From contig NZ_NUGT01000034.1 in NCBI RefSeq assembly GCF_002574545.1, forward strand, positions 25,243-89,242: DNA of 64,000 nt, written 5' to 3'. Shown here in pieces: positions 13,975 through 56,549 of this stretch. Position numbers and translations under genes: made by a program. The stretch comes from Bacillus sp. AFS055030 (lineage in GTDB: Bacteria; Bacillota; Bacilli; Bacillales; Bacillaceae_G). Position 1 is the stretch's first letter. Each line of letters opens with the position of its first letter. Below the pieces are notes generated by a model. That model had not been told where the DNA came from. It worked only from the letters and a program-made list of their open reading frames with translations, and searched no databases.

Positions 13975-14024
13975 CTGAATATAAGGATAACTCCTTAAGT
14001 TAAATTTGAAAGGGTGTATTGTAT

Positions 14025-17000
14025 TTGAAGAGTCATTTTGTAGTGCCACTGAAAGTTGTTTCTACAAGTTTTATAGCAGCTAGTTTGCTATTTTCTAGTC
14101 ACACATTTGCTTCGGTTGATTCAACTTCTCAAGTTGGCAACTCATACGTAGAACAGTATTTAAAAAATCTAACAAAAGAGGATCGAAATCGCGTACATAA
14201 TGGTGTTGAAACGACAGATCCAGAAAAATATTTAGCACCTAAGCTTAATACAACTAGTCATAATCCAGTAAACATCATTGTTCAATTTGCTCAAGACCCT
14301 GCTAAAACAGATGTTAAGAAAAACGAAGAAAACGGAATTGAAGTCTCTTTAGATGAGGCAAAAAATAAAGTAGAAAAATCTCATCAAAATTTTAAACAAA
14401 AAATTGGACAAGCAAAAAAAGCCATACCTTCAATTAAAATTCGTAAAGAGTACCGTCAAGCATTTAATGGTGTTGCGATGACTGTTCCAGCTAATGAAGT
14501 ACATAATATTCTTGCGATGGATGAGGTAAAAGCAATATTTGAAGATAAAGTAATCAAAGTTGACCCATCGCCTTCAGAAAAACAAACAACAAAATCAACT
14601 ACTCATTCTCCAGCAGTAGATAGTACAGAAAATATAGGAGCAACAAAACTTCATGAGGAAGGTGTTACCGGTAAAGGTGTCAAGGTTGCTGTACTCGATA
14701 CAGGGATTGATTATCATCATCCAGATTTAAAAGATGTTTATAAAGGCGGATATGATTTCGTAAATAACGATTCTGATCCAATGGAAACTACTTATGATGA
14801 TTGGAAAAAATCTGGAGAACCCCAAATCAGTCCATTAGGTGGATCTACCTATTATACTTCCCACGGAACTCACGTATCTGGAACAATTGCTGGGCAAGGT
14901 AAAAATAAAACTGATTATGCCGTCACCGGAGTTGCACCTGGAGTTGATCTTTATGCATACAAAGTGCTTGGCCCATATGGATCTGGATTTTCAAGTAACA
15001 TCATCGCTGGAATTGAAAAAGCAGTAGAAGACGGAATGGATGTTATTAATCTATCATTAGGTTCAGATTATAATGATCCACTTGATCCAAATGCAATCGC
15101 AATAAATAATGCTGTACTAGCTGGAACAACTGCTGTTATTGCAGCTGGTAACTCTGGAAGTGATTTATATTCACTTGGTTCACCTGGTACTTCTCCACTA
15201 GCTTTAACAGTTGGTGCAAGTGATTTTTCTATGACCATCCCTACTGCTACTGGTACGGTTAGTTCAGCTAATGATCTATCACTTTCGAATTTAAGACTTC
15301 TAGCAAAGAGCTATGATGATGATTTAAATACTTTAAAAGATCGATCCCTACCTATCGTTTTTGTTGGACTTGGAAATAGTGAAAGTGATTACAACGGCAA
15401 GGATGTTAATGGGAAAATTGCACTAATTGAGCGTGGAGTCCTAAGCTTAAATGAAAAAGTAATGCTTGCTAAGAAACATGGAGCAAAAGCAGTTTTAATG
15501 TATAATAATAACCCAACAGAAGGCCAAATTCCTCATTATCTTGGAAACGGCTTTGACTTTATTCCTTCATTCACTCTTACAAATGAACAAGGATTAAACG
15601 TTTTAGAGAAAGTAAAACAAGGTAATGCCACATTTACTTTAAACTCAATTGGTGAGATGAAAACTAGCGGAGATACATTAGCTGACTTTAGTTCTCGTGG
15701 TCCTTCAAACAGATATTATGATATTAAACCGGAAGTGACCGCACCAGGTGTTGCTGTATTCTCAAGTGTACCAGCTTATGAAAACGGTCCGAATCATCTA
15801 ACCGATTATACGAATGCATATATGAGTGCATCTGGAACATCTATGGCTACTCCACATGTAGCTGGAGCTTGTGCCCTTCTTCTACAAGAACATCCAGAAT
15901 ACAAACCAGAAGATGTTAAAGCCGCCTTAATGAATACAGCTGATCCGCTACAAAAAGATTATAGTGTATTTGAAGTAGGTGCTGGAAGAATTGATGTTTA
16001 TGAGGCAGTTCATTCTGATTTGCATATTAAAGTATTAGATAAAACGATCAGTACAAAAAATGACCAAGATATCACCATTCCAGACGTAACAGGCGCATTA
16101 AGCTTTGGTCCACAAGTAACTGCAGGTAAGGAAAAAACGGACACTCGAGTGGTTTCTATTTCGAATACAAGTAACAAAAAGAAAACATTCTCTGTTCAAG
16201 TTAAATTTAACCAAAATGTAAAAGGTGCAAAAGATGCACAAGCAAATCATGTGACGATTGATCTCCCGGATAAGATTACAATGAATGCCAATAAAACAAT
16301 TAAAATTAAACCAATGATTCATATCCCTGCATCTGCAGAGTTTGGTAATTACGAAGGATATATTTATATTACAAACAGTAGTAATCCGAATGAAATTTAT
16401 CAAATACCATTTGGATTCAAGCATTTACAAGAAGGAATTAATAAAATCAATGTGTATGCAGACGCCTTCACAACGCGTCGTGATTTAAATCATAGTTTCC
16501 CATCTGGAACGGGCATTGAATTCTCCTTAAATAGCCCGATGGAAACTGTAGATTTTATTTTAAAAGATGCGAAGACTGGTAAAGAACTAGGTTTAGTTGA
16601 TGCATATCAAGGTCTTTTTACAGAAGATTTTATGTTCGAAACTGAATACGGATTTAATGGACTTTATAATGCATTTACGGGGCATAAGGATCATCCGATT
16701 TCTTATTCAAAAAGGCTTGCTCCTCCAGGAAAATATGAATTAGAACTAATCGCAACAAACCGAGAAGGTAAAACATTTAAAAAATCTGATGTATTTTATA
16801 TCGAAAATTCTAACCCTATTGTAAAAATGCAACAACCAGGTGGAGTTTACGAAGTAACCGGGGACGGTATGACTGTAAAAGGTAACATCTATGACCAACA
16901 AGTAGATATTATGAATCGAAATGGATTTAATTGGGATCAGTCTTCTAATTTGGTTAACTTAATGAATAAAACAAAATACTCTTCAACACCTTTAGCAATT

Positions 17001-18152
17001 GAAAAAAATGGTGACTTTGAATTTAAAACTAGTCTTTTAGACGGTAAAGATGTAACAAAAATCACCTTAGATGCATTTGACTACGCAGGAAACGGTATGC
17101 AGGATCACCCTGATTTCTCATACACACTAGTTAAAAAAGGACTACCATACGCAAAATTAGTTGCTAACAAAAATGACGTAAAATATGGTGAAAACGTAAC
17201 CCTTTCACTTAGTGCAAATAATATTAAAGATTTAACAGGTGGAGAATTTACATTATCATTCCCTTCTACGGTATATGACATTGCAAATGTATCTTTAAAT
17301 AAGGATTATGTTTCTTATGCTAAGTCAAATGGTTTAAATGCTGATCTTAAAATAATTGAGCAAACGGCAAGTAAAATTACACTTAATACACATTTAACTG
17401 GCGATTCAATCCAGCCGATCCAAACGAATATGCCATTAATCGATATTACATTTAAAGTGAAGGAAAAACCTACTAACTATGTTAAATGGATTCAAACGAT
17501 TGATCTCACAAAATCTACTGCATTCTCTTTAAATCAAGCACCTGCAACAATTGAAGGTTTTGGTCAAGGAATAAATATTGTTCCAACATACTCTCAACTT
17601 GAAGGTGGTATTCTTGCTGATGGATTCCTAGACGATTGGGGTATTTGGTTAGACTACAAAAAAGATTTTTCGAAAGCAGGCATGAGTTTAACATTAGTTT
17701 CTAAAAATGGAAAGACATATACAGGAGAATTTAACAGCAGCGCACGTTACTTTGTTAAAAATCTTCCAGCTTCAGATGAAGATTACGATTTAACAGTCAA
17801 AATACCAGGACATTTCGATCGACACGTAACAGTGAACGATTTATATGATCTAGCGAATGGTGAAACGGTAGGTCGCTTATCTTACATTTTATATGCACCT
17901 GTTATGGGTGGGGATGTAAATAACGATGATGTCATCGATGTATTAGATGCAGATTATATTAAAACATACTGGGGCACTAACAAGCGTGCAGCTGATATCA
18001 ATTTCGATGGAATTGTTGACGATAAGGATATGAGTTTCGTACAAAAGAATTATTTAACTCCAAACCCTGATGTCCAAGACGTTCCAAAAGGTAAAAAGAA
18101 AATTAAAGGTCAAACTTTAGAAGATATTTTGAAGGATTTAAACATTCAATAA
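14025..18152 (+). CDS. vpr: Secreted Vpr-like subtilisin-family protease with cohesin- and dockerin-like modules
   Basis: A 1375-residue exported serine protease. A signal peptide ends near SSHTFA (residue 27); an I9-type inhibitor prodomain follows (about 80-190). The S8 catalytic set is Asp225 (VLDTGID), His280 (SHGTHVSG), Asn376 (AAGNSG) and Ser606 (GTSMATPH), with a PA insert near 460-500. Beyond the usual Vpr fold (about 800 residues) it has beta-sandwich domains, a cohesin-like region (1050-1147) and a dockerin-like pair of calcium loops, GDVNNDDVID and ADINFDGIVDD (1295-1345). There is no cell-wall anchor. Two TTG starts are possible (14019, 14025); AAAGG spacing favours 14025. A paralogue with the same core lies at 48188-56218. 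It probably feeds on protein; the added modules suggest assembly on a surface or with partners. Confidence 0.9.
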   Translation: MKSHFVVPLKVVSTSFIAASLLFSSHTFASVDSTSQVGNSYVEQYLKNLTKEDRNRVHNGVETTDPEKYLAPKLNTTSHNPVNIIVQFAQDPAKTDVKKNEENGIEVSLDEAKNKVEKSHQNFKQKIGQAKKAIPSIKIRKEYRQAFNGVAMTVPANEVHNILAMDEVKAIFEDKVIKVDPSPSEKQTTKSTTHSPAVDSTENIGATKLHEEGVTGKGVKVAVLDTGIDYHHPDLKDVYKGGYDFVNNDSDPMETTYDDWKKSGEPQISPLGGSTYYTSHGTHVSGTIAGQGKNKTDYAVTGVAPGVDLYAYKVLGPYGSGFSSNIIAGIEKAVEDGMDVINLSLGSDYNDPLDPNAIAINNAVLAGTTAVIAAGNSGSDLYSLGSPGTSPLALTVGASDFSMTIPTATGTVSSANDLSLSNLRLLAKSYDDDLNTLKDRSLPIVFVGLGNSESDYNGKDVNGKIALIERGVLSLNEKVMLAKKHGAKAVLMYNNNPTEGQIPHYLGNGFDFIPSFTLTNEQGLNVLEKVKQGNATFTLNSIGEMKTSGDTLADFSSRGPSNRYYDIKPEVTAPGVAVFSSVPAYENGPNHLTDYTNAYMSASGTSMATPHVAGACALLLQEHPEYKPEDVKAALMNTADPLQKDYSVFEVGAGRIDVYEAVHSDLHIKVLDKTISTKNDQDITIPDVTGALSFGPQVTAGKEKTDTRVVSISNTSNKKKTFSVQVKFNQNVKGAKDAQANHVTIDLPDKITMNANKTIKIKPMIHIPASAEFGNYEGYIYITNSSNPNEIYQIPFGFKHLQEGINKINVYADAFTTRRDLNHSFPSGTGIEFSLNSPMETVDFILKDAKTGKELGLVDAYQGLFTEDFMFETEYGFNGLYNAFTGHKDHPISYSKRLAPPGKYELELIATNREGKTFKKSDVFYIENSNPIVKMQQPGGVYEVTGDGMTVKGNIYDQQVDIMNRNGFNWDQSSNLVNLMNKTKYSSTPLAIEKNGDFEFKTSLLDGKDVTKITLDAFDYAGNGMQDHPDFSYTLVKKGLPYAKLVANKNDVKYGENVTLSLSANNIKDLTGGEFTLSFPSTVYDIANVSLNKDYVSYAKSNGLNADLKIIEQTASKITLNTHLTGDSIQPIQTNMPLIDITFKVKEKPTNYVKWIQTIDLTKSTAFSLNQAPATIEGFGQGINIVPTYSQLEGGILADGFLDDWGIWLDYKKDFSKAGMSLTLVSKNGKTYTGEFNSSARYFVKNLPASDEDYDLTVKIPGHFDRHVTVNDLYDLANGETVGRLSYILYAPVMGGDVNNDDVIDVLDADYIKTYWGTNKRAADINFDGIVDDKDMSFVQKNYLTPNPDVQDVPKGKKKIKGQTLEDILKDLNIQ

Positions 18153-25208: not shown

Positions 25209-26495
25209 TTACGCCACAACTTCACGCTCATTTATAAATTTTTCATATTGCTTTTCAGTCATGATTTTCTTAAGTGTTTGTACTACTTTCCATACTTCCT
25301 CGTAAGAAGTATAAAGTGCAACTGGTGCAAGACGAATAATATTTGGAGCTCTGAAATCTGGAATAATATTGTTTTCTTTCAAAGACTTACAAATACGTGC
25401 TGCTTCTTCATGCTCTAAACTAACATGTCCGCCTCGTCTCGCATCTTCTCTAGGAGATCCAATGAAAAACCCCATATCTGGTAATTCTTGTTCAATACAA
25501 TCCATTAAAAATTGATTTAATCGAAGTGATTTTTCTCGAATCGCATCAATTCCAGCTTCTGTAAAAATCTCCAAAGATCCGATTAATGGTGCACAGCTTA
25601 ATACATGAGGTGTACCGATTTGATAAGCTCCAGCAGTTTCTGCAGGAGTTAGAGTGTGTTCCATATCAAATTGCTTATCTTTTCTAGAACCAAACCACCC
25701 TGCAAGCCCAGGCAATGCACCAAAATGTTTGCGATTAACAAATAATCCACCTACACCACCTGGTCCTCCATTTAAATGTTTATAATTACACCAGTAGGCA
25801 AAATCCACATCCCACTCACTAAAAGAATGTGGGATTGATCCAACTGAATGGCAACCATCAAAACCGATTAATATTCCTCGTTTATGAGCTTCTTCGGTTA
25901 ATCGCTTCATGTCTAAAATTTGACCACTGCGGTATAAAACCGTTGGTAAAATTATCAGAGCGATTTCTTCCGTCATTGCATTAATAATATCATCCTCATC
26001 TAAATAACGTCCATCTTTACTTTTTACGCAAATAAGATCTACCTCAGGATCTAATCCGTGAATACGGAGTTGACTTTGAAGGGCATATATATCTGATGGG
26101 AATGTAAGTTCATCAGCTAATATCTTTTTTCTATTCCCCTTTGGTTGGAAAAAAGTAGCTACTAACTGGTGTAAATTAACCGTAGTGGAACCGGTTACAA
26201 TTACCTCCTCTGATGAAGCACCGACTAACGGAGCTAATTTTTCTCCTAATTTTTCAGCCATGAAAAACCATGGATGATGTCCATTTGTCCAACCATCTAT
26301 TCCATAGTTCTTCCAATCTTCCAATGATTCTAGTAAAGTACGTTCAGCCCTTTTAGAAAGTAGACCTAATGAATTACCATCCATATAGATTGAATCAGGA
26401 TTCAAGTAAAACTCATCTCTAAACTCTCTAAGTGAATCAAGACGATCCATTTTTTTAGCGTACTCTAGTGTTGTTTCCGTAACTTTCGTATTCAT
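25209..26495 (-). CDS. kynU: Kynureninase
   Basis: PLP-dependent enzyme cleaving L-kynurenine to anthranilate and L-alanine. Length 428 is standard. The PLP lysine is in [13 protein letters not shown], and the phosphate-binding region [14 protein letters not shown] and [14 protein letters not shown] match the family. AGGAGG precedes the ATG. No tryptophan 2,3-dioxygenase or kynurenine formamidase gene is nearby, so it may act on imported kynurenine. Two TetR-type operators overlap the minus-35 of its promoter, and the divergent TetR gene is the probable repressor. Confidence 0.93.
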
Positions 26496-48187: not shown

Positions 48188-51100
48188 TTATTTCTTTACA
48201 ACTTTGACAACTGTTGCAGAACTTTCATTTCCAGTTGAATCTTTTGCATAGACTGATATTTCTGTACCAACTTTTTGTTGTTTAATTTGGATCCTAAAAT
48301 TCCCTTTCGAATCAGCTTTTCCAGTTGCAATGGCAACACCATTGATTTTTACAGTAATCGTTGCATTCGCTAATGTTGTTCCTGAAATCTTTGGATCATT
48401 TTCATCGATTTCGTTAACATTCGGTTTATTTAGTGTCCATTTTGCGTAAATTGTTGTATCACTCGTTACTTTATCTGTTGCAAAATTCCATATTGTTTGT
48501 CCTGTTGCATCCTTGAACCATCCGGCAAAAGTATAGCCTGTTTTTGTTGGCACAGTTGGCTGAGAAATCATCGTGTTATAGTCTGTTTTGATCGCATTTA
48601 CAGCACTTCCACCTTGGCTATCAAATTTAACTGTATACGAGTTAATGCTCCACTTAGCAAATAACTCTGTATCTGCAGTTACTTTATCTGTTGCAAAATT
48701 CCATGGTGTTTTTCCTTCCGCATCTTTATACCATCCAACAAAAGTGTATCCAGTTCTTGTTGGCGCTGTCGGTGCTGTCATTGTCGTATTATAATCAACT
48801 TTCTTAGTTTCTACTAAGCTTCCATCTTGCTTGTTAAATTCTACTGTGAACTTATGAACTGACCATTTTCCATAAAGTGTTTTTGCAGAATAGATCGAGT
48901 TTGTAAAGTCCCAAGGAATTGTACATGCTTCATCTGCAAACCAACTTAAATCATATCCATAAGCAATCGGTGCAGTGATTCTTCGCACGACAATTCGATC
49001 TTTTGTTGCATCTTTTACTTCAGCTGGAGCACTATTTGGTAGTACAAAATGAACATTATATCCATTTACTACTTTTTGTACAACAGTCACATCAGCATAC
49101 TCTTTAGCTTTAATTGTAATCGTATAATCTTTAGCTTTTGTGAATAAACCTTGATTTAGAGTAATCAGACGATTTTCTTTATCTACAGTGTATTTCGATG
49201 CGTCTATTGGGAGACCGTTGACGTTAATGCCAGTAATCGCATTTGCCCAGTCTTTGTCACTGAACTCTAATACGATATCATTACCTACTGCATTATCCGT
49301 TGAATCAGCTGTCACAACAGAGCCAGCTAAAGCATATTTCGCATAAAGTGTAATTGGTTTTGTCACAATCGTATCAAAATCATATGGCATTGTTAAATTT
49401 TCATCCGTGTACCAACCATAGAATTTGTATCCCACTTTTGTCGGATCAATTGGTTTTGTTGCATTTCTGTCAACAATTTGAGCTGAAACTGGATCTCCAC
49501 CATTCGAATTAAATGTAACTGTATAACCAATTACTTGGTCAACAACTACAACATCTTTATATCCTTCTGAAACAATCGTCACATTGACTTTTTGTCCAAC
49601 TGTGAATAATGCTGCTTTAAGGATGATGCTATTATTAGTGATTGTGTAGTCTTTATTCAGTTCTAATGTTTTCGCACCAATTTTCACATCTTTGATGTTA
49701 TCTTTCCATGTCCCATCATCTGTAAACGGTAATGTAATATCGCTACCAACAATGTTTCCAGCAACATCTTTATTTACTGTAGGTGGAACTTTAATCCAAC
49801 ATAGATAGAAAGTTGAATTATCTGTTAGCACTTTAGGATTTGTCGTAATATCTGACTTCTTATCACTTGAATTTGCTGCATCCAAATATAGGTCATTACT
49901 AATCGTTAAATCACCATTTTTCACATGTACTGAACCCATACTCATAGTTGGTGCAGTTGTTTTTCCATTGACTAAAGTATCGGCAAAGAATGTGTCATTT
50001 GCATTCTTTAACGAACCGCCGTTTAAATCAATATGACGTCTATATCCAAGTTGAATACCTGGAATTGTAACATTTTCACCTGTTGTCGATGTTACAGTTA
50101 AATCATATCCTTTTACCCCACCAATATTTCCAAGTGATGGCATTTCACTGAAAGCAAACTTTTCACCTAAATTCGTTTGACCTGCTTTAACAGCTTGATC
50201 ATGTGTAGCTGTTGTGAAAGAAAGAATCCCATTACTTCCGTTAGATGACAAGTCATAAGTACTTGGGTCTAACGTATAAGTTGTTGGTGTCGTATCTGTT
50301 GAGCCATCGCTCTTCATCGCATAGAATTTCGCTTCAATTTTTGCAATTTTATCTTTACCTGTTAACCAAGAAACATTCGTTAAATAATCTGGGATATTGA
50401 TTTTTAAATCGCCTTCTCCTAGTACCCATCCTATTCCAGAAACTGCCCCGTTACTTCCATCGAATTTTAATCCATTAGGATTGTTTTTATCAACTGGTGA
50501 ATAACTTTGAGTTGTGTTCATTTGCCATTTTGCATAAACGGTTGCGTCTCCTGTTGCAGGGAACGATTGTGGATCCCACTGTGTTATACCTTCTGCTTCA
50601 TTATACCAACCTAGGAATTTATATCCAGGTTTAGTTGGTGCAGGTTTCATGAATGAGATTAATTCACTATTCGGACCATCCGTTCTACTGGATCCTGCCT
50701 TGAATCCTATCGCCATTGGTTTAATGGCTGTCCCTCCTTGGCTGTTAAACGTAACACTATATCCAACTGGTTGTTGACCTGTGTAGACTGGATCAGAACC
50801 AGCAATTACATCCGGGTAAACAGTGCCATCTTCACCTTGTGAGCCAATTGTAAATTTGTAAAGTTGTGGTAAATAACTTGTTCCACCAGGATTTACAGTT
50901 GCAGCATTATAGGTAGCACCATTTTTCGGATCTAGTGTTGAATTCGTCATAAATGTTTTCGCATTAAACGTAATTTTTCCTGGTTGACTAATATCGTAAT
51001 ATTTTTCATTTGTATCTGGATTAATTAAATTACTAATATCCATACTCTTACCACTATTCGTTGTTACAATTACCTTATTGATTCCGTTTCTCCACTTCGC

Positions 51101-54100
51101 ATCTTCTGGGAAAGTTAATGTTAAGTCCTTCCCAATATGCGCTACTGCTGGATCCGTAATAATTGGGATTGCAGGCGTTGGAATCGGTACCGATGATACT
51201 GTTAGAGATTTTGTTACATCTTGATAGCCTGTCGCTTTTACTGTAACTGTGTAATTCGTTGCCGTCGGGAATAATGAACCTGGGAACGTAATTTTTGATG
51301 GCATAGTTTGCTGTACACCATTCGCGTCATAATAAGTGTACCCTGGGTTGATTTTAACTAAATCCGTTACATCCGTTGAGCCTAACATAATTTTTGTAAT
51401 TGATTTTCTCCATACTACATCATCAACGAACACCGTGCTTGAAGGTGACATTGAGATTGTTGCTCCATTTTGCAAGTCTTGTAACTTTGGTGCTATGATG
51501 TTTTCTTGTGCTGGAGCTGCAAAATTAAGCTTTTGCATGACTTGCTCTACTGTGTCATCTTTATTTAACGTGATTGAACCCGCATATTGAGTAGTTATAG
51601 TTGTATCTTGTTCTACTTTTGTTTGTGCTGCTGGAACATCTAGCCCTGCATCAATAGCACTTTGATTTTGTTTACCAAAGTTTTTAAAGATGAAATAGAA
51701 GTCATTATAATCAATTCCATAACCAAATCCACTTGGCTTAATCCAGTATATATCTGCATCACGGTTCGTGTTTAAGAATGCCGTTTTGTTTGCTAGTTTA
51801 TTATCTGGATTATTCACATTATTTAAGTTTTTATATTGATAATACACATCGATTTCTTTCAGTAAATCCTTCATGTCGATAACGTTATCACCGTTAACAT
51901 CTCCACCTAAAAGGATCGGGAATAGACCTCGAATATCCTTTATAGTACCTGATTGATAACCATATTTATTTTCACCAATTACAGGTGTTTTTTCATATCC
52001 TTTAAAATGGCCTGGTACACTTGCTTCAACAGAATATGGCTTGTCACTAACACCCATCGTCAACGCATAATATGGGTTGATAAACGTATAAGCCATTGTA
52101 TTATTAAATGATGTCGGTTGGTCCGTTGTATATTTATTCCCTTTATCATCCGTAGCAGTTACCTTCGCACCAGAATCAACCGTAAATTGTGGATATTGGT
52201 TGTTTACGTTATTTCTAGAGAAAGATTCCGCTGCCACTTGTCCTCTAAGTACAGAGATGTTCTGTCTTACATAAGGTACATTAGTTGGAAACCAAGCGAC
52301 TTTTGTATTTTCACCTGACAAAGTTAAATTCGCTTGTAGTAATTGATACGGGAATTGACCTGTTATTGGATCAGGGTTGTTATAAGTCACATCTGCTTCT
52401 ATTATTGGCATATCATGGTCAAGAGCACCCTCTGATGCAATATTTGAAAGCGTCACATCTGTTGTTTTACCCTTTTGATAGATTGGATGAACATATGGTT
52501 CACCTACAGTAAGAACTTTAGTTGGATCTATTCCCTTATTAATAAGGTATTTTTTATAATCCTCTGTTAAGCGGATATTACTGAATTCATAAACACTATT
52601 ATCATTCAGCATAAATTTACCGCCTGTCATTCCTACTCCATACTTTGTTGTCAATGTCATCTTGAAAGGTTTATTATTATCAACAACTACCTTATCTTCG
52701 GTACCTGGTCCTGCATCTACTCCATTAGATGAAGTTAGCGTGACATACGGATTTCCTTTTTTAATAAAATAATAAGTTTGTCCGTTTAAACTGAAGTCAC
52801 TCTCACCTGAATAATCAACAGGATCAATATCAAATTGACTTCCCATTTTATTTGCAACGTCCTCAGCCGTCACACCAAAATGGAAACGACCATTCGTATC
52901 GGTTTTGAAGTAGACTGTAGGGAACATACTGTCTTGATAACCTACAACACTATTCAAGCCTTGATCAACAGGAACTGGTGACCCATCCTGAGGGCTTGGC
53001 ACTGACGTTTCCCCGTTAGATTTCATTACCTCTATGTTTGAGTCATAAACTTTACCACGGAAACCTTTAATTTCTTGTCCAGGTAGATACCCTGTCGGAT
53101 CAATTTCATAAATCCCGCCCTTAGAGTCTGAATCCATCGTCATAGTTGGTGGTGTACCGTCAACATATAGCGTATCTTCTGCAGTATAACGTTTTCCATC
53201 TTTACCATTTGCGATCAACTCAAGAGAATATGCGCCTTCTTTTAAAACTTGTACTTCGTTTGAAATACCAGATGCGTCATACGTACCATCGTATTCCTTT
53301 GTAAATGGAAGATACCATCCATTAAAAAGAGTTATACGTGGGCCGTATTGAACACCAGGGATGATACCACTACCGTTGGATAAGGTGTTAGCTACCCCTA
53401 TATATTTTCCGTCTTTGTTTTTTACTAGAATATAGTAGTTATCCATTTCGTTATTTACTGAGAAGTTATAAGCAGAAAGATTTCCTACACTAGTCGCTTT
53501 TAACGCGACTTGGAAATTATTAATACCTTTTTCAGCAACTGTAATCGTAAACGGAACGCGATAAGACTCTGTTGAATCAGCAGTGTTTACTAGGTTAATA
53601 TACCCTTCGTAAGTGCCCTCTAATGAATTTGACGGAACTGTAATTTTTGCTGTTGCTTTAACAGTACTTCCACCGCCAACATTAATGTTTGTCACATTTT
53701 GTCCACCGACAGTAAAATCAACTTTTACATCATTTCCAGTGCCTGGACCCACTTTATTCGATCCAGCAAATTTTGTTGAAATAAACTCAGTACTTACTTT
53801 AAATGTTTTACTGCTATTTCCTTGGTTAGAAACATTAAAATCTTTTGATGAAACCACATCATCTGAGCCGTTCGTTGCACCTTCTCCTCTTCCTTTAAAA
53901 CCAAAGAACATGCTTCCTGTAAGGTTTTCAACCTCTTTCAGAGTATTATCTGAATCAGCTGCGTATGCTTTATCTAAAACTTGGATTTTTACATTTGTTC
54001 CAATAGCACGAGCAGGATCAACACGTCCAGCACCTACTTGGTAAACACTATATTTCTTTGAATCTGTGTCAATACTTTTAGCTGTATTCATTAATGCTGC

Positions 54101-56218
54101 TTTAACATCTGCAGGCGTATAGTCAGGATGTGCAGCTAAAATTAATGCTGAAATACCAGCAACATGTGGTGTTGCCATTGATGTACCAGACATAATCTGA
54201 TAACCAAGTTTATAATCATGTTCTTGATTTGGCTCCCAAATATCGAATGGAGCTGTTGAAGCAATATCAACACCAGGAGCTACTACATCTGGCTTAATCG
54301 TCCAATCTTTAACTGGACCTGTTGAGCTAAAGCTTGCTAATTCATCTCCACTTTTACTAATAGGAGCATCAAGAGTAGAAGGGAATGTAATGCTAGCCGT
54401 TTTAGGATCTTGTTTAATTGCATCAGAAAGAGCTTGTCCCTGTACTTGTGTTAATGAGATGGAATAAACATTATCGATGCTGACACCTAAGAAATTAGGA
54501 ATATATCCTTGCGTATCCGAATCATCCGTATTATCCCAGATCACCATACCTGCTGCATTCGCATTTTTAGCATTTGTCATTTTTGTCTGTAAGTAATCCC
54601 CGCCACGTTTTACTAGAACAAGTTTACCTTTCACATCAATTCCACTATAATCTGCTTCACTTCCTAAACCAACATCAACGATTGGAAGTGTTTGACCTTT
54701 ATAAGCATCGTCTGATTGTGAAAAGTTTTTCCCGAATAAACGTGCTTTATAAGAAACTGAACCATTCTTAACGGTCATTGTTGCAATTTCTTCGGGGATT
54801 GTACTTGCACCTACAGTAATTGCTAGTGGCGAAGTTCCCGGTGAACCAACTGTAGCTTGTCCAGGGCCACTATTACCTGCAGCAACATCACACACAACTC
54901 CAGCTAAAGTAGCATTGTTAATGGCAATACTTGTTGGGTATAGTGGATCATTAATTGTTGCACCAAGTGATAGGTTAATAACATCCATTTGATCTTTTAC
55001 AGCTTGATCGATCCCACCTAGTACTGATTCTGATGTTCCATGTCCTCCTGGTCCTAGTACACGATAACCATGAAGCTCTACATCGGGTGCTACCCCATTT
55101 GCGGAATAAACATCGTTATTATCCGTCGTGTTTGCTGCAATCGTTCCAGCAACATGAGTTCCATGCGAAGTAATATATGGCTTATAAGTTGAAGGTGGTG
55201 TTCCCCAAACTGAACCTGGATTCGCCTTATCAGCTACCCAATCATCATAAGTCGTTTCCATAGGGTCATGGTCATCAACGTATTTTATATTTCCTTCTGC
55301 ATCAAATCCTTCATTATTAACTAGGTCATGTCCACCATATAATTTTCCATTTTCATCATGTGTAACTTTATAAAGATCAGGGTGGTTGTAATCGATACCT
55401 GTATCCAATACACCCACTTTAACCTTCTCACCAGCACGTGGACCTTTTTTAATGATACCTGTATTCCCTTCAGCTTGAAGCTTGTCTATCCCTAAAAATG
55501 ATAACCCTGTTGTAGGCTTACCAGCAGATTTTGCTGTCATTGATTTTTGAGAAGTTGAAATTCCTTCATCAGGTAAGGAATATTCTACTTGAGACCAGAC
55601 AGCCGCTACATCTGGACTTTCTGCAAGTTTTTGAACTAAATTTGCAGGTAGTGTTAATGAAACGCCATTGAATGCATCTGTAAATTCTCGTGTTATACTG
55701 ATTTCTGTTTTAACAGTTTTCCCGCCAACAATTGTAGTTTTAGGCTGTTTATTTAAAAAGCTCTTAAAGTTTGCATGTGAATCTTTAACTTTATTTTTAG
55801 CATCTGAATATTCGCTATCAAAAGCCTGACTATTCGCAGTTGCTCCACCTTTAGCTAAAGATTGCTTAATGATTTGTATTTTAGCTGGATCTTGTTTAAA
55901 TTGAACGATAACATTAACCTTTTTTGAACCGATTAAATCCTTTTTGTCTAAACGGATTTTTTCAGCTTGATCTGCTCCAGTAAGCTTATCAATATTTGCT
56001 TTTTGTTCAGCAGTAAGCCCGTCAAGAATACGGTTAACTTCTTTTGCACTAAATGTATTACTAGATAAACCTTGTTCGTTTAGTTTCGCTTCAGCATTAT
56101 TAACACTTGCGAAACTTTGAGGAATCACAACATTTAAAAACATCGAACTTAAAGCAAAGATCGAAAGTATTTTTTTTGTTGGCCTCTTACTCTTATGAGA
56201 CGTTTTTTTCTCTTTCAT
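48188..56218 (-). CDS. Giant secreted subtilisin-family protease with cohesin-, dockerin-, HID- and InlB-type repeats
   Basis: 2676 residues. After a signal peptide (to about 38) and I9-type prodomain comes an S8 domain with Asp272, His352, Asn449 and Ser680 and a PA insert. Then follow beta-sandwich domains, a cohesin-like region (about 1180-1300), and a dockerin-like module with one good calcium loop (GDVNGDNVIDMKDL, near 1435) and a stretched second loop. The tail alternates domains resembling DUF1533/HID (about 1576-1676, 1678-1796, 2146-2229, 2298-2381) with InlB/Listeria-Bacteroides repeats (1820-1900, 2231-2296, 2383-2451, 2454-2523, 2526-2594) and ends in a Big_6-like Ig domain. No LPxTG or SLH anchor is seen. 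ATG 56218 is preceded by GGGGGGGG. Paralogous to the protease at 14025. Confidence 0.9.
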   Translation of the reverse strand: MKEKKTSHKSKRPTKKILSIFALSSMFLNVVIPQSFASVNNAEAKLNEQGLSSNTFSAKEVNRILDGLTAEQKANIDKLTGADQAEKIRLDKKDLIGSKKVNVIVQFKQDPAKIQIIKQSLAKGGATANSQAFDSEYSDAKNKVKDSHANFKSFLNKQPKTTIVGGKTVKTEISITREFTDAFNGVSLTLPANLVQKLAESPDVAAVWSQVEYSLPDEGISTSQKSMTAKSAGKPTTGLSFLGIDKLQAEGNTGIIKKGPRAGEKVKVGVLDTGIDYNHPDLYKVTHDENGKLYGGHDLVNNEGFDAEGNIKYVDDHDPMETTYDDWVADKANPGSVWGTPPSTYKPYITSHGTHVAGTIAANTTDNNDVYSANGVAPDVELHGYRVLGPGGHGTSESVLGGIDQAVKDQMDVINLSLGATINDPLYPTSIAINNATLAGVVCDVAAGNSGPGQATVGSPGTSPLAITVGASTIPEEIATMTVKNGSVSYKARLFGKNFSQSDDAYKGQTLPIVDVGLGSEADYSGIDVKGKLVLVKRGGDYLQTKMTNAKNANAAGMVIWDNTDDSDTQGYIPNFLGVSIDNVYSISLTQVQGQALSDAIKQDPKTASITFPSTLDAPISKSGDELASFSSTGPVKDWTIKPDVVAPGVDIASTAPFDIWEPNQEHDYKLGYQIMSGTSMATPHVAGISALILAAHPDYTPADVKAALMNTAKSIDTDSKKYSVYQVGAGRVDPARAIGTNVKIQVLDKAYAADSDNTLKEVENLTGSMFFGFKGRGEGATNGSDDVVSSKDFNVSNQGNSSKTFKVSTEFISTKFAGSNKVGPGTGNDVKVDFTVGGQNVTNINVGGGSTVKATAKITVPSNSLEGTYEGYINLVNTADSTESYRVPFTITVAEKGINNFQVALKATSVGNLSAYNFSVNNEMDNYYILVKNKDGKYIGVANTLSNGSGIIPGVQYGPRITLFNGWYLPFTKEYDGTYDASGISNEVQVLKEGAYSLELIANGKDGKRYTAEDTLYVDGTPPTMTMDSDSKGGIYEIDPTGYLPGQEIKGFRGKVYDSNIEVMKSNGETSVPSPQDGSPVPVDQGLNSVVGYQDSMFPTVYFKTDTNGRFHFGVTAEDVANKMGSQFDIDPVDYSGESDFSLNGQTYYFIKKGNPYVTLTSSNGVDAGPGTEDKVVVDNNKPFKMTLTTKYGVGMTGGKFMLNDNSVYEFSNIRLTEDYKKYLINKGIDPTKVLTVGEPYVHPIYQKGKTTDVTLSNIASEGALDHDMPIIEADVTYNNPDPITGQFPYQLLQANLTLSGENTKVAWFPTNVPYVRQNISVLRGQVAAESFSRNNVNNQYPQFTVDSGAKVTATDDKGNKYTTDQPTSFNNTMAYTFINPYYALTMGVSDKPYSVEASVPGHFKGYEKTPVIGENKYGYQSGTIKDIRGLFPILLGGDVNGDNVIDMKDLLKEIDVYYQYKNLNNVNNPDNKLANKTAFLNTNRDADIYWIKPSGFGYGIDYNDFYFIFKNFGKQNQSAIDAGLDVPAAQTKVEQDTTITTQYAGSITLNKDDTVEQVMQKLNFAAPAQENIIAPKLQDLQNGATISMSPSSTVFVDDVVWRKSITKIMLGSTDVTDLVKINPGYTYYDANGVQQTMPSKITFPGSLFPTATNYTVTVKATGYQDVTKSLTVSSVPIPTPAIPIITDPAVAHIGKDLTLTFPEDAKWRNGINKVIVTTNSGKSMDISNLINPDTNEKYYDISQPGKITFNAKTFMTNSTLDPKNGATYNAATVNPGGTSYLPQLYKFTIGSQGEDGTVYPDVIAGSDPVYTGQQPVGYSVTFNSQGGTAIKPMAIGFKAGSSRTDGPNSELISFMKPAPTKPGYKFLGWYNEAEGITQWDPQSFPATGDATVYAKWQMNTTQSYSPVDKNNPNGLKFDGSNGAVSGIGWVLGEGDLKINIPDYLTNVSWLTGKDKIAKIEAKFYAMKSDGSTDTTPTTYTLDPSTYDLSSNGSNGILSFTTATHDQAVKAGQTNLGEKFAFSEMPSLGNIGGVKGYDLTVTSTTGENVTIPGIQLGYRRHIDLNGGSLKNANDTFFADTLVNGKTTAPTMSMGSVHVKNGDLTISNDLYLDAANSSDKKSDITTNPKVLTDNSTFYLCWIKVPPTVNKDVAGNIVGSDITLPFTDDGTWKDNIKDVKIGAKTLELNKDYTITNNSIILKAALFTVGQKVNVTIVSEGYKDVVVVDQVIGYTVTFNSNGGDPVSAQIVDRNATKPIDPTKVGYKFYGWYTDENLTMPYDFDTIVTKPITLYAKYALAGSVVTADSTDNAVGNDIVLEFSDKDWANAITGINVNGLPIDASKYTVDKENRLITLNQGLFTKAKDYTITIKAKEYADVTVVQKVVNGYNVHFVLPNSAPAEVKDATKDRIVVRRITAPIAYGYDLSWFADEACTIPWDFTNSIYSAKTLYGKWSVHKFTVEFNKQDGSLVETKKVDYNTTMTAPTAPTRTGYTFVGWYKDAEGKTPWNFATDKVTADTELFAKWSINSYTVKFDSQGGSAVNAIKTDYNTMISQPTVPTKTGYTFAGWFKDATGQTIWNFATDKVTSDTTIYAKWTLNKPNVNEIDENDPKISGTTLANATITVKINGVAIATGKADSKGNFRIQIKQQKVGTEISVYAKDSTGNESSATVVKVVKK

Positions 56219-56223
56219 GTTTT

Positions 56224-56231
56224 CCCCCCCC
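56224..56231 (-). promoter_or_regulatory. Eight-G tract acting as ribosome-binding site
   Basis: A run of eight G on the minus strand ends five bases before the ATG of the giant protease and is the only Shine-Dalgarno-like sequence. Such tracts are prone to slipped-strand change. Confidence 0.6.
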
Positions 56232-56549
56232 AAGTATAAACAAATAATAAAAAATTCTATTATTTGCCCGAATTACATAAATTTAAGAATTAAAATTTTT
56301 CTAAAAACTTAAATTTAAGTAAATTTTACTGCATGTATTGCTTGTCTTGTATTGGGGAAATTTAGCGATTTATACTTCATTTTTTTACGTATTAAAATTG
56401 AATAAATGTAGTTTCTTGACGTAAACTGTAGATATTTATCCTAAAAAACCTAATAAACTATGAAATTTTTGTAAATTTAAAATTTGGGGGAATTTGAGGT
56501 TTTTTATTAAAAAAATCAAATAATTTGAATATTCCTATTTTTGGCAAAA

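Follow-up and report, generated by a model that had tools for sequence, protein, structure and literature searches.

Cohesin and dockerin modules form the plug-and-socket pair used to build cellulosomes, and have been studied mostly as parts of scaffoldin-based, cellulose-degrading machines. CipA of Clostridium thermocellum is a non-catalytic scaffoldin with many cohesins; its C-terminal end (PDB ID 3kcp, which we take to be CohI9-X-DocII) contains the same three modules, in the same order, as the protein described here, in which one such trimodule is fused to a protease. This protein is a subtilase encoded on the plus strand at positions 14025–18152 of a 64,000-nucleotide stretch of Bacillus sp. 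AFS055030 (hereafter the window; contig NZ_NUGT01000034.1, forward-strand positions 25,243–89,242). Its front end and dockerin are shared by NP_691157.1, presumably from Oceanobacillus iheyensis. A 2008 serine-protease survey gives NP_691157.1 as the sole protein listed under Subtilase-PA-Dockerin, and nowhere uses the word cohesin (PMC2605481).

In the excerpts of the cited articles on which the comparisons made here rest, the ScaO/ScaP scaffoldins of Acetivibrio and Clostridium alkalicellulosi, like the window family, carry a peptidase (S8 in Acetivibrio), a cohesin and a dockerin in one chain; ScaP2 combines Coh2 and X-Doc2, and the type II cohesins tested were found to interact with its X-dockerin (PMC6780208, PMC3413522, PMC11557425). 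Unlike the window family, they number four in C. alkalicellulosi, bear extra GalOx, Rhs and PPC modules and belong to hosts with full cellulosomes. Paenibacillus guangzhouensis encodes 28 monovalent adaptors with a single dockerin-cohesin pair, many of them with an N-terminal enzyme. As in the window genome, nearly all its dockerins lie in cohesin proteins, but the enzymes named are glycoside hydrolases and there are five SLH-anchoring scaffoldins, whereas no scaffoldin was found in the window genome with the cohesin models described below (PMC11557425). Related designs in cellulosome clostridia and one Paenibacillus are already published. In the open-licence literature searched, no title or abstract start describing the present Bacillaceae family was found; as far as that literature goes, the closed pair in proteases without a detected scaffoldin, the dozens of copies to which it has expanded and the genomes with one copy are new.

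Judged by sequence comparison, the last 340 residues of the window protein are a cohesin-X-dockerin-tail unit that is homologous, module for module, to the clostridial scaffoldin end. The unit is laid out as follows (residues counted from position 14019):

17136–17519, plus strand: cohesin-like module, residues 1040–1167 (family alignment, Pfam Cohesin, AlphaFold)
17157–17495, plus strand: Pfam Cohesin match (PF00963) inside the cohesin-like module
17529–17885, plus strand: X-module-like beta domain between cohesin and dockerin, residues 1171–1289 (PDB profile match, AlphaFold)
17910–18047, plus strand: dockerin, residues 1298–1343 (PF00404)
17913–17948 and 17994–18029, plus strand: dockerin calcium loops (Pfam, ligand conservation)
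18069–18149, plus strand: conserved C-terminal tail with a short predicted helix, residues 1351–1377 (alignment, AlphaFold)

A profile of the C-terminus, built from 22 paralogs (see below) and matched against PDB sequences, gave a single alignment with 3kcp chain A (catalogued as Cellulosomal-scaffolding protein A) that spans cohesin, X and dockerin (8–304 of 332; E 4.6e-6), and another, with 2b59 chain B, over X and dockerin (175–304; E 5.4e-4). The X module, which CarboxypepD_reg matches weakly in 4 of the 22 paralogs (best E 0.0054), stands directly before the dockerin and resembles that of solved X-dockerins (2b59_B, 3kcp_A), so that the two form an X-dockerin dyad, presumably of type II. 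A second profile, of the cohesin-like module of the 22 paralogs, matched solved scaffoldin cohesins (best 3l8q, E 4e-9), the alignments shown covering mainly the first 50 positions except for a CipC cohesin (12–111). A generic Ig or Fn3 fold in place of a cohesin is disfavoured, since solved cohesins are the best matches, though designed Ig-like proteins match as well.

The first-pass annotation, made from the letters of the window alone, had placed a cohesin at about residues 1052–1147 and dockerin loops at 1295–1345. Both assignments agree with Pfam (about 1047–1159 and 1298–1343), and both models exceeded their curated cut-offs, Cohesin on slices and in a six-frame search. PF00963 (cut-off 24.1) scored 34.6 bits on a 130-residue slice (E 2.7e-8), 32.2 bits on a 350-residue slice and 34.2 bits in the six-frame genome search; it was not reported by hmmscan of the whole chain, probably because of HMMER's filters. 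Dockerin_1 (PF00404, cut-off 22.9) scored 30.5 bits on the whole protein and 34.0 bits on a slice (range 30.5–34.1). The dockerin belongs to PF00404 and consists of two 12-residue calcium loops with Asp/Asn ligands, the ten ligand positions being Asp or Asn in 112–113 of 113 full-length relatives. With such ligand conservation and scores over the cut-off in all 22 paralogs, a chance or miscalled dockerin was rejected. An AlphaFold model of the 338-residue trimodule (81 sequences; pLDDT 95.7, pTM 0.84) contains the two dockerin helices that had been named as a check, and a tail helix. The cohesin fold is a nine-strand jelly roll, and in the confident model the cohesin-like module consists mostly of strands.

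What had been seen in one protein proved to be larger than stated, as neither the paralogs nor the X module had been visible to the annotation. Searching the 4.39-Mb assembly (91 contigs) with the window protein as query yielded 22 full-length paralogs, itself included, together with a longer form (L034), the second protease of the window (L035) and another long protein (L036). In an alignment of these 25, the 22 share the order protease, middle region, cohesin-like module, X, dockerin and tail. The family cohesin profile found 24 modules in this genome, each in a different subtilase frame (the 22, L034 and, weakly with E 1.1e-4, L036), and the three six-frame Pfam Cohesin matches fall in the same frames. 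Dockerin_1 gave 25 matches, in 24 subtilase frames and one 115-residue fragment. No scaffoldin was detected with PF00963 or the family profile, by which a divergent cohesin could be missed. The genome is thus unlike that of a cellulosome producer, in that no multi-cohesin scaffoldin (24 cohesin-like modules in 24 different frames) and no dockerin-bearing polysaccharide-degrading enzyme appeared among these matches. The fragment (L001; G000:C66:38589-38732) comprises dockerin and tail, with no signal peptide by eye, and has the appearance of a 3' remnant from a copy that was lost.

The two modules are kept together in other genomes as well. Relatives were encoded on 177 stretches, 80 of which were kept as 75 loci. 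In these, 91 distinct full frames (protease at least 400 bits and middle region at least 100 bits) were counted, and 90 have cohesin, X and dockerin, the remaining one being a piece of a broken gene; the set is biased, its loci having been found via the C-terminus. Among neighbours not used as the match, 21 of 22 have all three modules, the 22nd being that same piece. The tail profile missed 5 of the 90, in which a similar end is visible by eye.

Within the genus, all 13 genomes match at E ≤ 1e-3 (3–65 matches each) and 12 at E ≤ 1e-30 (5–61 each), and 14 of 19 genomes match at family level at E ≤ 1e-30. In an order-level sample of 249 genomes from 105 genera, 24 genomes and 10 genera gave matches, with at most eight candidates scored per genome, so that copy numbers there are lower bounds. 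Eight of these 24 genomes have one family match. In each of the eight, Dockerin_1 and the family cohesin profile match the whole genome once each (both at E ≤ 0.01, all candidates scored), and reading of the loci placed the two modules in one frame in every case. Pfam Cohesin (E ≤ 0.1) matched in three of the eight, always at the place of the family member and nowhere else; a cohesin so divergent that neither model recognises it would escape detection.

As such a closed cohesin-dockerin set occurs without a detected scaffoldin, self-association is the simplest idea. We tentatively propose, with a confidence somewhat short of even, that the calcium-loaded dockerin of one molecule would bind the cohesin-like module in a second copy or in a paralog, and that the proteases would thereby join each other, as chains or small oligomers, without a scaffoldin. 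The homotypic chaining suggested at first pass stands to this extent: both modules are real and form a closed set without a detected scaffoldin, while cohesins as divergent as these argue against one simple interface shared by all. A wider version strikes us as rather doubtful: spore formers might possess a scaffoldin-free, protease-only extracellular assembly, in which up to about 60 trimodules per genome would form mixed chains in any order through a shared dockerin code, and species with one copy would chain with themselves.

Several observations count against self-association. Pfam Cohesin matches just 4 of the 22 paralog C-termini, even at E values up to 1, and the 25 matches of the family cohesin profile include designed Ig-like proteins (E 0.0016–0.0019) and other beta proteins. 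Among the 113 relatives, mean identity is 0.60 for the protease, 0.385 for the middle region, 0.27 for the cohesin, 0.31 for X, 0.64 for the dockerin (0.565 outside the calcium loops) and 0.46 for the tail. With cohesins 27% and dockerins 64% identical, no conserved cohesin surface is evident to which the conserved dockerin could bind. Cohesin and dockerin distances correlate at 0.64 in raw form and at −0.006 given protease, middle region and X, and in a direct-coupling analysis cohesin-dockerin pairs made up 32 of the top 200 (16%) versus 14.7% of all pairs, on 68 effective sequences for 338 columns, which is weak either way. The corresponding correlation of cohesin and X, given the other regions, is 0.42.

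Very different cohesins beside a conserved common dockerin may also reflect a role as a stalk, or another partner. Cohesin, X, dockerin and tail might form a rigid, calcium-stabilised stalk or cap that aids folding or stability of the large protease, with no cohesin-dockerin bond at all. We regard this as unlikely, even though the divergence of the cohesins and the lack of cohesin-dockerin covariation fit it, as do the short gaps between modules (medians of 3 and 4.5 residues across 90 proteins) and the pTM of 0.84, which for three domains suggests fixed relative positions in the model. The dockerin helices outside the calcium loops are 56.5% identical, compared with 60% for the catalytic domain, a degree of conservation that seems higher than a mere cap would require.

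The same confident, fixed arrangement in the AlphaFold model, together with the 1:1 co-retention of the modules in 90 proteins and eight one-member genomes, would suit a clamp in cis, in which the dockerin would fold back onto the cohesin in the same chain, forming a closed, calcium-locked loop. The two are separated, however, by an X domain of about 110 residues, the linkers are very short, and a cohesin and dockerin of one chain show no covariation, so that we consider such a clamp quite improbable.

Of the non-catalytic modules compared, dockerin and tail show the highest conservation, and no cohesin of the family looks sufficiently conserved to serve as an evident shared receptor. Both observations would suit the alternative that dockerin and tail bind a common partner other than a recognisable cohesin, such as a wall component or surface protein, and so anchor the proteases to cell or substrate; with no candidate receptor found in a search limited to cohesin models, we think this no likelier than the clamp. 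Dockerin-tail pairs account for 9 of the top 100 couplings versus 2.8% of all pairs, and several, though weak, join dockerin helix 3 to the tail helix. This would fit a terminal clasp as described, in the excerpt considered, for another dockerin (PMC5864761).

Whichever role they have, both modules are under selection. Compared with orthologs in three loci (L042, L045 and L049), dN/dS was 0.06–0.22 for the cohesin and 0.02–0.05 for the dockerin; in comparisons with L043 and L051 the cohesin gave 0.30 and 0.11, respectively, and synonymous sites of the dockerin were saturated in both. The cohesin is under purifying selection in orthologs, and the dockerin more so.

The remainder of the gene product is, on its sequence, probably a secreted and active S8 subtilase, which we take to be Vpr-like by its domain order. 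It comprises:

14010–14016, plus strand: AAGGGTG, probable ribosome-binding site (read by eye)
14025–18152, plus strand: whole gene, 1375 residues from 14025 (frame list)
14025 to about 14111, plus strand: signal-peptide-like start, within the gene (by eye only)
14277–14561, plus strand: I9 inhibitor propeptide, residues 87–181 (Pfam, 36.8 bits)
14670–15986, plus strand: Peptidase_S8 catalytic domain, residues 218–656 (Pfam, alignment of relatives)
15378–15596, plus strand: PA domain inserted in the catalytic domain, residues 454–526 (Pfam)
16059–17138, plus strand: middle region, residues 681–1040 (Pfam on the slice 16101–17201)

The open frame is single and uninterrupted from 14019 to 18152 on the plus strand. 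Because AAGGGTG fits the TTG at 14025 (spacing of 8 bases, by eye) better than the TTG at 14019 (2 bases), 14025 is the preferred start, as the annotation had it. A Pfam scan of the whole protein returned I9 (87–181), S8 (218–656), PA (454–526) and Dockerin_1 (1298–1343), and no NCBIfam family scored above its cut-off for the window protein. Catalytic residues D227, H282, N378 and S608 are kept in all 113 aligned relatives. On its slice, the middle region matched DUF4625 with 31.3 bits (cut-off 27; 23 bits, below it, in the whole protein), and fn3_5 remained at 21.6 bits, below its cut-off of 27.6.

The second subtilase of the window (48188–56233, minus strand, 2681 residues) contains Listeria-Bacteroides repeats, Shr-like HID repeats and Big_6 according to Pfam. 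It can be aligned with the paralogs through the whole C-terminal region and has an X module (38.5 bits). No Pfam cohesin or dockerin was found in it at E ≤ 0.1, nor any match to the family cohesin profile, and a dockerin is recognisable as two parts (12.8 and 5.9 bits) with an insertion between them. With no detectable cohesin and a split dockerin, the suggested assembly of the window protein with this protease is poorly supported.

PF00963 has 54 matches in the 13 genus genomes. Fifty fall in frames of 1350–1486 residues; the other four are in G004 (829 residues), G007 and G012 (1244 residues each) and G011 (580 residues). By eye, no dockerin or subtilase was seen in the partial stretches of G004, G007 and G012. 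G004, alone among the 13, lacks a family match at E ≤ 1e-30; its single, stronger Pfam cohesin (L117, 70.6 bits) lies early in a protein that contains a long Ser/Asn/Gly repeat. The 1244-residue frames of the two other genomes (L118, L119) have a cohesin-like segment and are non-subtilase in the stretch seen. Three genomes assembled in one to three contigs (G003, G012, G016) hold 99 dockerins, 87 of them in frames of 1341–1462 residues and 12 in frames of other sizes.

Twelve of the 22 paralog genes form five head-to-tail groups in which neighbours are separated by no more than 1717 bases; no other family gene lies that close to the window gene. In a FastTree phylogeny of protease and middle regions, many paralogs of this genome adjoin copies from other species, so that much of the repertoire would be older than these species; several others sit on long, unsure branches. 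The repertoire also decays, as copies in L053 and L044 are broken into several frames. Further 3' pieces occur in L075, L090, L091 and L114.

The nearest named relative among the fetched loci is from Gottfriedia luciferensis, and the window bacterium is itself probably a Gottfriedia. Named relatives are mostly Gottfriedia and unnamed Bacillus, others including Peribacillus, Neobacillus, Rossellomorea, Sutcliffiella and Paenisporosarcina. CP053689.1 (L136), a 250-kb plasmid recorded under the name Arthrobacter citreus NEB 577, shows similarity to the window protein at 13 places, the best of which spans 99% of the protein with 42% identity. Three of them, in the stretch examined, carry the annotation S8 family serine peptidase. 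As the fetched relatives are all Bacillaceae or near kin, this species name may be wrong. Plasmid-borne copies suggest a route of spread.

Apart from one dockerin fragment, every cohesin-dockerin pair detected in the window genome and the eight one-member genomes lies within a subtilase; copy numbers there run from 1 to 24, and other genomes of the genus reach 61 trimodules. If the modules do not bind each other, both would have been kept for structure, a warning against inferring cellulosome-like assembly from Pfam hits. If they do bind, these bacteria would have a protein-degrading analogue of the cellulosome that assembles without a scaffold, and the family would offer a simple natural system for studying the origin of cohesin-dockerin assembly.

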